From positions 925,105 to 989,104 of the forward strand of contig CT978603.1 of assembly GCA_000063525.1 (NCBI GenBank): DNA of 64,000 nucleotides. Reading direction: 5' to 3'. Under the pieces are notes generated by a model that did no database searches, was not told the DNA's origin, and was given only the letters and a program-made list of their open reading frames with translations. Numbering within the stretch: position 1 is the stretch's first letter; each line of letters opens with the position of its first letter. The translations under genes and the position numbers were made by a program. This document shows, in pieces, positions 12,644 to 46,869 of the stretch. Origin of the DNA: Synechococcus sp. RCC307 (GTDB lineage Bacteria > Cyanobacteriota > Cyanobacteriia > PCC-6307 > Cyanobiaceae).

Positions 12644-12672
12644 AAAACCCGGAGCTGTTGACCCCGGGCTTT
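12644..12672. terminator. Hairpin, possible bidirectional terminator
   Basis: AAAACCCGG pairs with CCGGGCTTT across an 11-nt loop. A short T stretch follows on the minus strand and a weak one on the plus strand. Confidence 0.4.
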
Positions 12673-12831
12673 GGTGAATGCAATTCGGAACTGCCGGCGC
12701 TGGCCTCCTGGGGCCATGGGATCCAGAGGGGTCTCCAAAAGCCCGGGGGCACCTGTGGCGGTGCGTCGGGGTGGCTGATCAGCCTGAAGACCTGAAATCG
12801 GATGAAACTGTTGGAGCAGGGGGCCGGATCG

Positions 12832-12873
12832 TCAGCGCGCTCCTGGCATCTGCTGCGGCGGGGTGTCGTCCAT
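12832..12873 (-). CDS. Tiny ORF of the MDDTPP family, copy 1
   Basis: ATG 12873 is preceded at 7 nt by AGGAGGG and opens a 13-codon frame, MDDTPPQQMPGAR, ending in TGA. Two more copies with the same order of signals lie at 35585-35626 and 46518-46562. All three are followed by the block CCTGCTCCAACAGT, here at 12807-12820 on the opposite strand reading. The copies differ at many bases but keep SD, ATG, D-T-P-P and the downstream block. I read this as a conserved micro-ORF or leader element in an otherwise gene-free gap (12549-13079). Whether the peptide or the RNA matters is unknown. Confidence 0.5.
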   Translation of the reverse strand: MDDTPPQQMPGAR

Positions 12874-13079
12874 TGCTGGGCCCTCCTGAATCGGAAAGCG
12901 GAACGGAGAAGTGGTGCTGGAGCGCCTGAGGTTCAACTCAGTTCCAACCGCTCCTCCGTGTCCACATGCTCAATCTGGTCTCGCATGTGCCATGTCACAA
13001 GCCGTTCTTAACCCAGCTTCTTGCTTCTTAGCTGTCCTTCATTGTTGAAGCGCCAGCTTTGCCTCCCCCGTTGTTTGGT

Positions 13080-13556
13080 ATGGCCCGTCCCAGCCTTTAT
13101 CTGGCCTCTCCCTATGGCTTCGCGCCGCAATGGAAAGAGCAGCTTTTGCCGCAGTTCTGCCAGGCCCTTGAGTCATTAGGTGCCGATGTGTGGGAGCCCT
13201 TTGAGCGCAACAACCAAATTGATCTGAGCAAGCCTGGTTGGGCTTATCAGGTGGCATGCGCGGATGTGCGTGACGTGGAGCAGGCCGATGGATTTTTTGC
13301 GATCGTCAATGGAACGCCCCCCGATGAGGGGGTGATGGTGGAGCTGGGAATCGCCATTGCGCTCCACAAGCCGATTTTTTTGTTTCGAGATGATTTCCGG
13401 GTCTGCAGCGATTCTGAGGACTACCCGCTCAACCTGATGCTGTTTGCCGGCCTGCCTGAACACAGCTGGCGCGACCACTTCTACAGCTCCATCGCCGACT
13501 TGGCTGATCCAGCCAAAGCCTTGGTGCGCTGGCTCAGCTCTGCTGGCGCTCGCTGA
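13080..13556 (+). CDS. Nucleoside 2-deoxyribosyltransferase-like protein
   Basis: Starting at ATG 13080 the product has 158 residues. It opens with LYLASPYGF, matching the family's Y-x-A-x-P-F type start, followed by an acidic block DVRDVEQADGFFAIV and DEGVMVELGIA. The last contains the conserved acidic residue that attacks the deoxyribose. The family swaps bases on deoxynucleosides or cleaves nucleotides during salvage. Substrate cannot be told from sequence. Its 3' end overlaps a small convergent gene by 23 nt. Confidence 0.75.
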   Translation: MARPSLYLASPYGFAPQWKEQLLPQFCQALESLGADVWEPFERNNQIDLSKPGWAYQVACADVRDVEQADGFFAIVNGTPPDEGVMVELGIAIALHKPIFLFRDDFRVCSDSEDYPLNLMLFAGLPEHSWRDHFYSSIADLADPAKALVRWLSSAGAR

Positions 13557-14460: not shown

Positions 14461-15264
14461 ATGCAAAGCCCGATGCGATCGGCCAGCCCTCAGGGTCCAG
14501 AGACCGGGTTGGTGGCGATCGTGGCCATTGGCTTGGCAACGTTGTTGCTGCTTGCTCAAGCGCTGTTCATCGTTCCCGCTGGAGAAGTGGCGGTGATCAC
14601 AACCCTGGGCAAGGTGAGCGGCTTGCCCAGGCAGCCGGGTTTAAATATCAAATTGCCCCTGGTGCAGCAGGCCTGGCCCTTCAGCATCCGCACCCAGGTG
14701 CGGCCCGAGGACTTTGCAACGCTCACCAAGGACCTGCAGGTGATCCAGGCCACGGCCACGATCAAATACGCCCTGCGCGCTGATGAAGCCGGCCGCGTCT
14801 ACAGCACGATTGCCAGCAATGACCGCGATGTCTATCCCCGCATCATTCAGCCGTCGTTACTGAAGGCCCTGAAGTCGGTGTTCTCCCAGTACGAGCTGGT
14901 GACAATCGCTTCGGAATGGAATGACATTTCATCCTTGGTGGAGCGCACTGTCGCTGAGGAGCTCGACAAATTCGACTACGTCGAAGTGCGCGGCCTGGAC
15001 CTGACCGGTCTTGAGATCGCTGAGGAATACCGCGCGGCGATTGAGCAAAAACAAATTGCTGAGCAGCAACTGCTGCGGGCGCAAACCGAGGTGAAGATCG
15101 CTGAGCAGGAGGCTCTGCGTTACGACACCTTGAACAAGAGCCTGGATGATCAGGTTCTCTACAAGCTGTTCTTGGATAAGTGGGATGGCGTCACCCAGGT
15201 CGTCCCTGGGTTGCCGGGAAGTGGTTCTGGTGGAACGCCTCCGGTGATTGTGGGGCGTCGTTAA
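14461..15264 (+). CDS. Prohibitin/SPFH-family membrane protein
   Basis: The 267-residue protein has one N-terminal membrane helix (about 17-39), an SPFH/band-7 domain (about 40-200) and a charged coiled-coil (about 195-235). A Gly-rich tail ends in GTPPVIVGRR. Prohibitins form large ring assemblies in membranes and act as scaffolds, in cyanobacteria often at thylakoid or plasma membrane. The last 111 bases recur as an 85 percent identical fragment at 16666-16776, and the last 24 bases in variant form at 18789-18812, so this gene's 3' end is a duplication hot spot. Confidence 0.9.
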   Translation: MQSPMRSASPQGPETGLVAIVAIGLATLLLLAQALFIVPAGEVAVITTLGKVSGLPRQPGLNIKLPLVQQAWPFSIRTQVRPEDFATLTKDLQVIQATATIKYALRADEAGRVYSTIASNDRDVYPRIIQPSLLKALKSVFSQYELVTIASEWNDISSLVERTVAEELDKFDYVEVRGLDLTGLEIAEEYRAAIEQKQIAEQQLLRAQTEVKIAEQEALRYDTLNKSLDDQVLYKLFLDKWDGVTQVVPGLPGSGSGGTPPVIVGRR

Positions 15265-32513: not shown

Positions 32514-33311
32514 GTGTTGCCTCCAGCTGCTTGGAAAGCCATGGGATTTCGCTATCTCGATCAGATCGCCAGCCGTCAGCACATTCAGCAGTTTCTTGAG
32601 CTCGCTGATTTGGCTGCCGGTGGCGGCGATTCAGCTGAAAACGTTTTTCGGCTGTCGCACCGCCTGCGCGACTCCAAGCCGATGCGCTTGTGTGAGCGCG
32701 TCTTGCAGCGTGACCCGGCGTCTGCTGCCTTGATTGCTGAGCGCCGTTTGGTGGGCCCCTATGACCTCGATGCCCTCAAGGCCTGCCCCAAAGGCAGCTT
32801 GGGCCACACCTATGCGGTGGTGATGGAAACCATCGGCTACGACATCAACTTTTTCCCCGATCCGGCCTATTTCGCCAACCTGGAAACCGACGCCGACTAC
32901 ATCAACTACCGGGTGTACGCGACCCACGACATCCACCACATCCTCAGCGGCTTCAGCCTCGACAATTTTGGCGAAACCGGAGTGATCAGCATCAGCGTTG
33001 GCCAGTTCAACCACCCGGGCTTGGGGTTTGTTGATTTGATTGATCTGCTGCTTCAGTTCCTGCTTAATGAAACGCCTTTCGATGAGGCCACCAGTGCCAA
33101 GCAGCAGGCCCATACAGCTGGTTATGTGTTCCACATGATTGGCCATGGACTGGAGATGGCGGCCCAGGCCAAGCCGCTGTTCCCGGTGCTATGGGAGGAG
33201 CGCTTTGAGCAGGATCTCGAGGACCTGCGCAACGAGCTCGGGATTCAGGCGGTGCGTGAAGGGGCGTTTAGCTGGTATTCCAACCAAGAGATTGCAGCCG
33301 CTCTAGGCTGA
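32514..33311 (+). CDS. Coq4-family protein
   Basis: The 265-residue protein begins at GTG 32514 (or ATG 32541) and carries the Coq4 region GSLGHTYAVVMETIGYDINF followed by THDIHHILSGF. Its H-D-x2-H binds zinc in the eukaryotic family, where Coq4 supports ubiquinone synthesis. Cyanobacteria make plastoquinone instead, so the role here may be in quinone or another lipid pathway; that is inference. No other quinone gene is nearby. Confidence 0.82.
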   Translation: MLPPAAWKAMGFRYLDQIASRQHIQQFLELADLAAGGGDSAENVFRLSHRLRDSKPMRLCERVLQRDPASAALIAERRLVGPYDLDALKACPKGSLGHTYAVVMETIGYDINFFPDPAYFANLETDADYINYRVYATHDIHHILSGFSLDNFGETGVISISVGQFNHPGLGFVDLIDLLLQFLLNETPFDEATSAKQQAHTAGYVFHMIGHGLEMAAQAKPLFPVLWEERFEQDLEDLRNELGIQAVREGAFSWYSNQEIAAALG

Positions 33312-35260: not shown

Positions 35261-35368
35261 GGTCAACAAGCAATGGATGGCAACACCATCGCCAACCTGC
35301 TGAGTTCGCTGTGCGGGAAATACCCGTACCCATGACTCACCCACAGCCCATGGATCTGGCTGGTAGCA

Positions 35369-35400
35369 GAAAGCCGCCCCTCAAGGGAGGAGCGGCTTTC
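35369..35400. terminator. Perfect hairpin GAAAGCCGC / GCGGCTTTC
   Basis: A 9-bp stem with a 14-nt loop; short T runs lie on both strands, so it may end transcripts from either side. Confidence 0.5.
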
Positions 35401-35584
35401 GTGATGGCTGATTGGGCAGCGTCTGGTCAAAGGCGAACCTGGGGCCAAGGGTCCAGGTGTATCGGGCGGACTCCTATGGGGCACCTCAACGATGCAGAGG
35501 AGTGGCGCTGAATCGACGTCCAGTCGGTGGTCAACTCAGCTCCTCGCCCACGCTTTGTGGAGACTGTTGGAGCAGGCGCCTCGC

Positions 35585-35626
35585 TCAGAGTGCTGCGGTT
35601 GATGTCTCAGGTGGCGTGTCGTCCAT
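35585..35626 (-). CDS. Tiny ORF of the MDDTPP family, copy 2
   Basis: GGAGG lies 6 nt before ATG 35626, which opens MDDTPPETSTAAL and stops at TGA. The conserved post-stop block CCTGCTCCAACAGT follows (35563-35576). It shares order and spacing with copies at 12832-12873 and 46518-46562. Confidence 0.5.
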   Translation of the reverse strand: MDDTPPETSTAAL

Positions 35627-35850
35627 TGGGCGCCTCCGTGTTCGATGCCCATACTTTTGCCCTGCCGGTGGTCAAAGGCAATGCGCCTTAATGCCGATGG
35701 ACTTAGCCGCCGGCCTTGATCAGATTGGGGTGCCGTTTGCTTGGCGGCAAGCCGAACGCAGCTGTTCGGTTCGTCCCCTGCACAAACCAGCTCAGCTCTT
35801 GGAGACTGACAGCAGTTCGGCAACGAGACTCCGAGCTTTCATGAGGGTCA

Positions 35851-46280: not shown

Positions 46281-46869
46281 GGGCTGGCACCTCTAAAAAA
46301 TAAGAAGGCCGCCCCTCCAGCAGAAGAGACGACCTAGGCAGAAGCGACTTGGCTATGGCTCCCTGGGGCCATGACATCTAGGTGTGCAGTTGATGTGACT
46401 CCTGAGGGCACCACACGGTGCAGATGGAGTGTTCTCAACCCATGGCATCAGCCAGGAGTTTTGAAGAGAACCAACCTCACGAATAAAGGGAAACTGTTGG
46501 AGCAGGGGCCAATTCAGTCAGGCTGCTTCCTGGATTCGCTGGGGTGGAGTGTCGGCCGTCATGCGTTCCTCCGATCTCGATGGCATTACTTTCCAACGGC
46601 TCAGGTTTTTTCGCATCGGTGAAAACGCGCATTGCCTTTTGAGGAGAAAAAACCTTCAGTGGGAACGGCGTGCTCAAACCTTGATGGGATGCAGCCGTTG
46701 CTGATGCCTGATCAGCACAGCGCTGAAGCAATGCGGCACCAACTGCTCTAAGATCACATCGGTTTGGTAATCCAGGAATAAGAACTGACCAGCTTCTGAC
46801 CGCCTAATACCTCAGCGACACTCGACCGACGTCCATTCACTCGTTTTCAAACACCAGTCCAAGACACGT
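46281..46869. other. Gene-poor stretch containing tiny 46518-46562 ORF
   Basis: About 590 nt with no supported protein gene apart from the third MDDTPP-family copy. Long open frames lack signals. Confidence 0.4.
46518..46562 (-). CDS. Tiny ORF of the MDDTPP family, copy 3
   Basis: GGAGG lies 5 nt before ATG 46562, which opens the 14-codon frame MTADTPPQRIQEAA. The post-stop block CCTGCTCCAACAGT follows on the minus strand (46493-46506). Same arrangement as 12832-12873 and 35585-35626. Confidence 0.5.
   Translation of the reverse strand: MTADTPPQRIQEAA

Follow-up and report, generated by a model that had tools for sequence, protein, structure and literature searches.

Results

Three copies of one element in the window

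The window analyzed here is a 64,000-nucleotide stretch of the Synechococcus sp. RCC307 genome, which is a single 2,224,914-bp contig. It carries three micro-ORFs on the minus strand, each with a GGAGG-type ribosome site, and all three lie exactly where the original prediction had placed them. The 14-nt block reported to follow the stop codon, CCTGCTCCAACAGT, is likewise present without change in 3/3 window copies. The shared element anticipated in that prediction exists but is much larger than the 80 nt first assigned to it, extending over ~250-285 nt in the window. Individual elements measure ~249-286 nt and, beyond the block, contain a GCAYC...GGUGC hairpin, UGGCCCCAGG and a terminator. Their predicted parts, in window coordinates, are as follows:

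12644..12892, minus strand: copy 1, whole predicted transcript, ~249 nt, with the start placed from the family by alignment with 66 copies
12668-12644, minus strand: copy 1, GC hairpin followed by TTTT, found by eye and by script, unflagged by a simple terminator scan
12832..12873, minus strand: copy 1, micro-ORF MDDTPPQQMPGAR including the stop, with an AGGAGG site upstream; part of the 178-copy codon-substitution test
12839..12843, minus strand: copy 1, predicted 5' strand of stem P1, GGAGC, within codons 11-12 (covariation)
12807..12820, minus strand: copy 1, block CCTGCTCCAACAGT, predicted to pair CCUG..CCA with UGG..CAGG
12707..12716, minus strand: copy 1, TGGCCCCAGG, predicted 3' partner of the block (alignment and structure model)
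12687..12691, minus strand: copy 1, predicted 3' strand of P1, GTTCC (alignment and covariation)
35368..35646, minus strand: copy 2, whole predicted transcript, ~280 nt
35585..35626, minus strand: copy 2, micro-ORF MDDTPPETSTAAL including the stop, with a GGAGG site upstream; part of the codon-substitution test
35592..35596, minus strand: copy 2, predicted 5' strand of P1, GCAGC, compensatory with GCTGC
35563..35576, minus strand: copy 2, block CCTGCTCCAACAGT, exact match
35438..35447, minus strand: copy 2, TGGCCCCAGG (alignment)
35416..35420, minus strand: copy 2, predicted 3' strand of P1, GCTGC (alignment and covariation)
35370..35396, minus strand: copy 2, terminator hairpin GCCGCTCCTCCCTTGAGGGGCGGC plus TTT, unflagged by a simple scan
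35675..35704, minus strand: copy 2, upstream imperfect palindrome AAGTCCATCGGCATTAAGGCGCATTGCCTT, at the same position as the palindrome published for Yfr103; possibly a transcription-factor site
46296..46581, minus strand: copy 3, whole predicted transcript, ~286 nt
46518..46562, minus strand: copy 3, micro-ORF MTADTPPQRIQEAA including the stop, with a GGAGG site upstream; part of the codon-substitution test
46525..46529, minus strand: copy 3, predicted 5' strand of P1, GAAGC (alignment and covariation)
46493..46506, minus strand: copy 3, block CCTGCTCCAACAGT, exact match
46362..46371, minus strand: copy 3, TGGCCCCAGG (alignment)
46341..46345, minus strand: copy 3, predicted 3' strand of P1, GCTTC (alignment and covariation)
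46306..46335, minus strand: copy 3, intrinsic terminator AGGTCGTCTCTTCTGCTGGAGGGGCGGCCT plus a T-rich tail (terminator scan)
46612..46638, minus strand: copy 3, upstream palindrome-like element AAGGCAATGCGCGTTTTCACCGATGCG, matched to the upstream motif of the family by visual alignment

A well-supported terminator of its own is found in 2/3 window copies (copies 2 and 3), and scans for sigma-70 consensus promoters gave no match at the three copies. The sites are intergenic, but genes lie close by, a correction to the long gene-free gaps that had been described. Three nearby plus-strand genes (13059-13556, 14461-15264 and 32514-33311) match nucleoside 2-deoxyribosyltransferase, Band_7/SPFH and Coq4, respectively, and nothing ties them to the RNA.

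A multicopy family in the Cyanobiaceae

With up to two mismatches allowed, the 14-mer alone is expected to give ~0.8 chance matches per window; at least 185 distinct copies, however, share the complete anatomy. The block plus NTC is found in 102 of 300 Cyanobiaceae genomes, and a reversed-pattern control yielded 0 over 300 genomes. Searching the rest of the genome and its relatives, as the original prediction had suggested, uncovered a fourth copy in the same genome and, with R1, a sequence model of the element's 5' part, copies in 103 of 121 high-quality Cyanobiaceae genomes. These matches span 29 of 31 genera at 1-10 copies per genome, and the same model gave zero matches in 172 cyanobacterial genomes of other families. 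Rfam 15 returned no window match at the gathering threshold, and a relaxed E-value produced only chance-level matches in the copies. Viral contigs gave 36 matches to a 17-mer; among the matches listed, none had the ORF or GGCCCCAGG, and thus no phage copies were found. In unrelated bacteria, the 17-mer has many chance matches that lack the rest of the element, and these served as a negative control. That the family is real is near certain, and codon selection, compensatory base pairs and family-wide retention lead us to reject the chance or dead repeat that had been considered at the outset.

Being multicopy and dispersed, the family could also be a repeat or mobile element spreading among intergenic regions, and we judged this explanation by the extent of the near-identical copies. 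Near-identical units of 385-478 bp do sit in unrelated flanks, and at one locus (L353, G078:C1:2,267,985-2,268,976) three almost identical copies, each with its own upstream palindrome, form a direct tandem with a 450-bp period. The fourth copy in the RCC307 genome, at 1,307,369, has 99.5% identity over 385 bp with copy 2; the duplicated unit runs from ~100 nt upstream of the predicted start to just beyond the terminator hairpin, has unrelated flanks and is a complete transcription unit. Such a delimited unit speaks against a mobile element, as do loci that stay in place between congeneric genomes (L001/L017 and L002/L018), the single copy kept in some genomes, and the selection on codons and base pairs described below. 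We consider mobility highly unlikely.

Probable correspondence to Yfr103

The element is very probably Yfr103, an identity inferred by comparison with the published description (copy number, range and palindrome). A 2,510,659-bp genome, which we take to be Synechococcus CC9605, has seven strong matches (E <= 1.2e-17) and one weak match (E ~1e-6). Matches also occur in the genomes that we take to be those of published Yfr103 carriers (RCC307, CC9311, WH8109, KORDI-49, SS120, NATL2A and MIT9313), and there were none in the genomes taken as MED4 and MIT9312. In many copies, including window copies 2 and 3, a GGCAAT...ATTGCC-type palindrome is centered ~62 nt before the ATG; it was unrecognized in window copy 1.

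In the available text of the paper on Yfr103 (PMC5069720), seven paralogs of 290-328 nt are described in Synechococcus CC9605, with homologs in RCC307, CC9311, WH8109, KORDI-49, SS120, NATL2A, MIT9303 and MIT9313; high-light Prochlorococcus is not listed. The fold is described there as conserved, and upstream, between -29 and -58 relative to the start site, lies an imperfect palindrome. Yfr103 accounts for 55.2% of CC9605 mdRNA-Seq reads (primary transcripts, Red Sea) in that study and reportedly also ranks first among ncRNAs in other cases. In some ocean cyanobacteria it is reported to be more abundant than any other RNA; it is called non-coding, with an "enigmatic" function. Read against the published palindrome position, ours puts the transcription start ~19 nt before the ATG. 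Measured from that predicted start through the terminator tail, two copies come to ~332 nt, one to ~370 nt and the window copies to ~249-286 nt, which agree only approximately with the published lengths given above. What had been proposed as a new family is therefore a real family, but one whose RNA is very probably the known Yfr103.

Selection on the encoded peptide

A ribosome site, an ATG, TTG or GTG start and an ORF of the form M-(x)-x-D-T-P-P-E..., with a Pro-Pro or Gly-Pro-Thr motif, are kept in 175 of 185 distinct copies, a count that is not the coding test because the motif itself chose the ORF. The coding test instead used nucleotide-aligned columns from 178 copies, with changes counted on the tree. 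Within codons 4-7 (D-T-P-P), there were 20/9/70 changes at codon positions 1/2/3, and synonymous changes outnumbered non-synonymous ones by 62 to 27 (~28% synonymous expected; p ~1e-14 to 1e-16), a bias indicating that the peptide is under selection. Codons 10-11 have no synonymous bias (32 to 155), and codons 12-13 are conserved as RNA: where they vary (GAA/GGA/GCA, then GC/GT), the partner strand varies in step. The peptide is 8-15 residues long across the family, and nine copies end early, after PPE(x). Start codons swap among ATG, TTG and GTG in bacterial fashion, and 158 non-redundant ORFs stop at TGA (149), TAA (6) or TAG (3). On this pattern of substitutions, it is very likely that the ORF is translated and under selection.

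The distance from the Shine-Dalgarno (SD) sequence to the start varies from 2 to 10 nt, and the SD is predicted to be mostly paired (mean unpaired probability 0.17). For ribosome-site accessibility, the 3' domain makes no difference relative to shuffled controls, which gives no support to sequestration of the site by that domain.

Two further proposals concern what follows the stop codon. Because L-L-Q-Q can be read in frame through the block of 3/3 window copies, the TGA might be read through into a longer product. The stop-to-block distance, however, is 9 nt in 42 copies, 10 nt in 85 and 11 nt in 14, with a range of 4-24, so that the frame past the stop is not conserved across the family and is kept in this genome only; we reject readthrough, to which we assign a negligible probability. 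Alternatively, a short ORF ahead of a stem resembles an attenuator, and in one derived class the ORF does precede a gene for a conserved 99-residue protein, as would be expected of a leader peptide controlling a downstream gene by attenuation. Across 174 loci, however, there is no recurring downstream gene family, and copies 2 and 3 are ended by independent terminators, which makes a leader peptide of this kind exceedingly improbable for the main family.

A folded 3' domain closed by the ORF

The architecture was derived from an alignment of 66 copies (A3) together with single-sequence folds. In A3, stem P1 joins the last codons of the ORF to the 3' end of the RNA and closes a folded 3' domain. 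Its pair 65-344 occurs as AU in 45, GC in 13, CG in four and GU in two of the 66 copies, and its pair 68-341 as CG in 51, UA in six and UG in six. In the inner helix (118-124 with 291-296), both strands vary at 6/6 pairs. Taking all named parts of the structure together, 91.6% of cells are paired, compared with 29-48% when it is slid by 1-3 columns, and the covariation score is 0.189 versus 0.115 for shuffled alignments; mutual information is confounded by the relatedness of the copies. RNAalifold on the first alignment returned little structure. In the model, the block pairs with UGGCCCCAGG, and because these pairs (helices 3-4) hardly vary, they give no covariation evidence, and the pairing is based on complementarity and on folds of single sequences.

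Paralogs in which ORF and RNA part company

Several variant classes keep one half of the element without the other. In a mini class of marine Synechococcus (L318 and L395-L397), the ribosome site, the ORF, a P1/P2-type hairpin and the terminator are kept and the central domain is lost; its ORFs are MRDDSPTEQDLEAA, MCDDGPTQQALEAA and MRDDGPTQQNLEAA, and L318 lies at ~1,172,111 in the genome taken as CC9605. The ORF is also found without the RNA domain in L398, L402 and L404, upstream of the gene for the 99-residue protein, an arrangement that suggests the element has been reused as an upstream ORF. The family's promoter region precedes this conserved protein (..SECRSRNDRQTYFSITRSLVQAQF..) at L398, L402, L403, L404 and the weak match in L328, accompanied by the ORF except at L403; neither Pfam nor NCBIfam gave the protein a confident match.

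Conversely, Cyanobium-type copies (L048, L321, L322, L324 and L325, which span several species of one genus) keep the block and the RNA domain and have lost the SD and ORF. Another paralog class (L375-L385, L163 and L394) has the block CCTGCTCCAAC followed by TTTTC, with an intact ORF in other species; in the genome taken as CC9605, both copies of this class are frameshifted (MTAEPHL...); 2/7 copies in that genome have a broken ORF. In a further class (L084, L164, L166, L175 and L316), D-D-G-P-T replaces D-T-P-P, with threonine in place of the second proline. Given GPT or SPT for TPP in such paralogs, the two prolines are not strictly required. Taken together, the ORF-only and RNA-only variants suggest that each half is of value and that neither is indispensable in every paralog.

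These variants bear on two simpler accounts of Yfr103. It could be a very abundant small mRNA whose product is the micropeptide, the 3' fold being a stability or termination element without a function of its own. The selected D-T-P-P codons and the loci that keep the ORF without the RNA domain (L398, L402 and L404) or without the central domain (the mini class) are in line with a small mRNA, but the compensatory changes and near-invariant stretches of the 3' domain far exceed what a stability element needs, and the Cyanobium-type paralogs retain that domain with the ORF gone. We consider this account unlikely. Instead, function could lie with the RNA itself, acting in trans or by binding protein, and the ORF would merely dock ribosomes or be tolerated. 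Strong covariation, ORF-less paralogs in several species, the two frameshifted copies, and the high abundance and ncRNA description in the available text of PMC5069720 all agree with a functional RNA. The synonymous bias in D-T-P-P and the swapping of ATG, TTG and GTG, however, show that the peptide sequence is itself selected, and an RNA-only function is to us decidedly unlikely. The covarying structure and ORF-less paralogs nevertheless point to a separate function at the RNA level.

Discussion

Selected codons, ORFs that look translated and a covarying structure make a dual-function small RNA the best of the options in the original prediction. It seems fairly probable that the element is a self-contained RNA gene and that its transcript serves at once as a messenger and as a structured RNA, with folding coupled to translation. 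Each site would be a Yfr103-family gene with its own promoter region. Ribosomes would load at the GGAGG just past the 5' end and make the 8-15 residue peptide M-(x)-x-D-T-P-P-E..., and the codons after the peptide core would double as the 5' strand of P1, the stem closing the folded 3' domain. Pro-Pro would pause the ribosome with its front edge against P1, a paused state that leaves the domain folded, and a ribosome moving on to the stop codon would open P1. How this very abundant RNA folds, how long it lasts or which partners it has might thereby depend on the state of translation.

The spacing of the element fits this scheme. The second proline codon lies 12 nt from P1 in all but two of 155 copies (153), where the distance is 11 nt. 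This spacing holds although the spacer codons between Pro-Pro and P1 are the most changeable part of the element, and although the SD-to-start and stop-to-block distances vary. Stalling at Pro-Pro occurs with the second proline in the P site, and PPE is among the listed pause sites (PMC4140641, PMC4176338). Protection of mRNA by the ribosome extends to +17, counted from the P site (PMC6238534), and P1 begins at +16 if the second proline is in that site; a ribosome paused in this way would thus touch P1 without opening it. The main alternative is that the fixed 12-nt spacing could be a matter of inheritance, and we regard coupling between the ribosome and P1 as plausible but somewhat doubtful. 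We hypothesize that such coupling acts as a switch. In its fullest form, Yfr103 would be gated by the ribosome, with a ribosome paused at D-T-P-P lying flush against the closing stem and the fold reading out the translation state, possibly proline supply, EF-P activity or ribosome availability, or with the RNA serving as a ribosome reserve or decoy. This fullest form is speculative and somewhat unlikely.

Although the RNA itself is very probably known already, its capacity to encode a peptide and the way in which ORF and structure are linked appear to be new. A literature search for the peptide MDDTPP found no report, and within the literature searched, the new points are that the RNA is very probably translated, that its peptide is under selection and that ORF and fold have nucleotides in common at a fixed spacing. 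A selected micropeptide in almost every copy, locked to the closing stem, turns the function of Yfr103 into a set of specific, testable questions. If translated, it is a very short conserved coding sequence, and the case cautions against calling abundant RNAs non-coding.

The element resembles published Yfr103 in its CC9605 copy number, species range, upstream palindrome and conserved fold. Yfr103 as published is non-coding, and the available text of PMC5069720 makes no mention of a micro-ORF, of selection on it or of its overlap with the closing stem, all three of which are present here. Leader-peptide attenuators likewise place a short ORF with a possible pause motif directly before a stem; in contrast, the element described here is a free-standing transcript with no common downstream gene. 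The cyanobacterial micro-proteins Norf and NsiR6 (PMC5126843) are also small conserved products of short transcripts, but the peptide here is unrelated in sequence, far shorter, embedded in a structured RNA and limited to one family. In the dual-function RNAs SgrS/SgrT and SR1/SR1P (PMC5126843), one RNA likewise combines a small ORF with an RNA part. Their peptides have 43 and 39 residues, whereas those of the present multicopy family have 8-15, and, unlike in either of these RNAs, the last codons of the ORF form one strand of the stem that closes the RNA.
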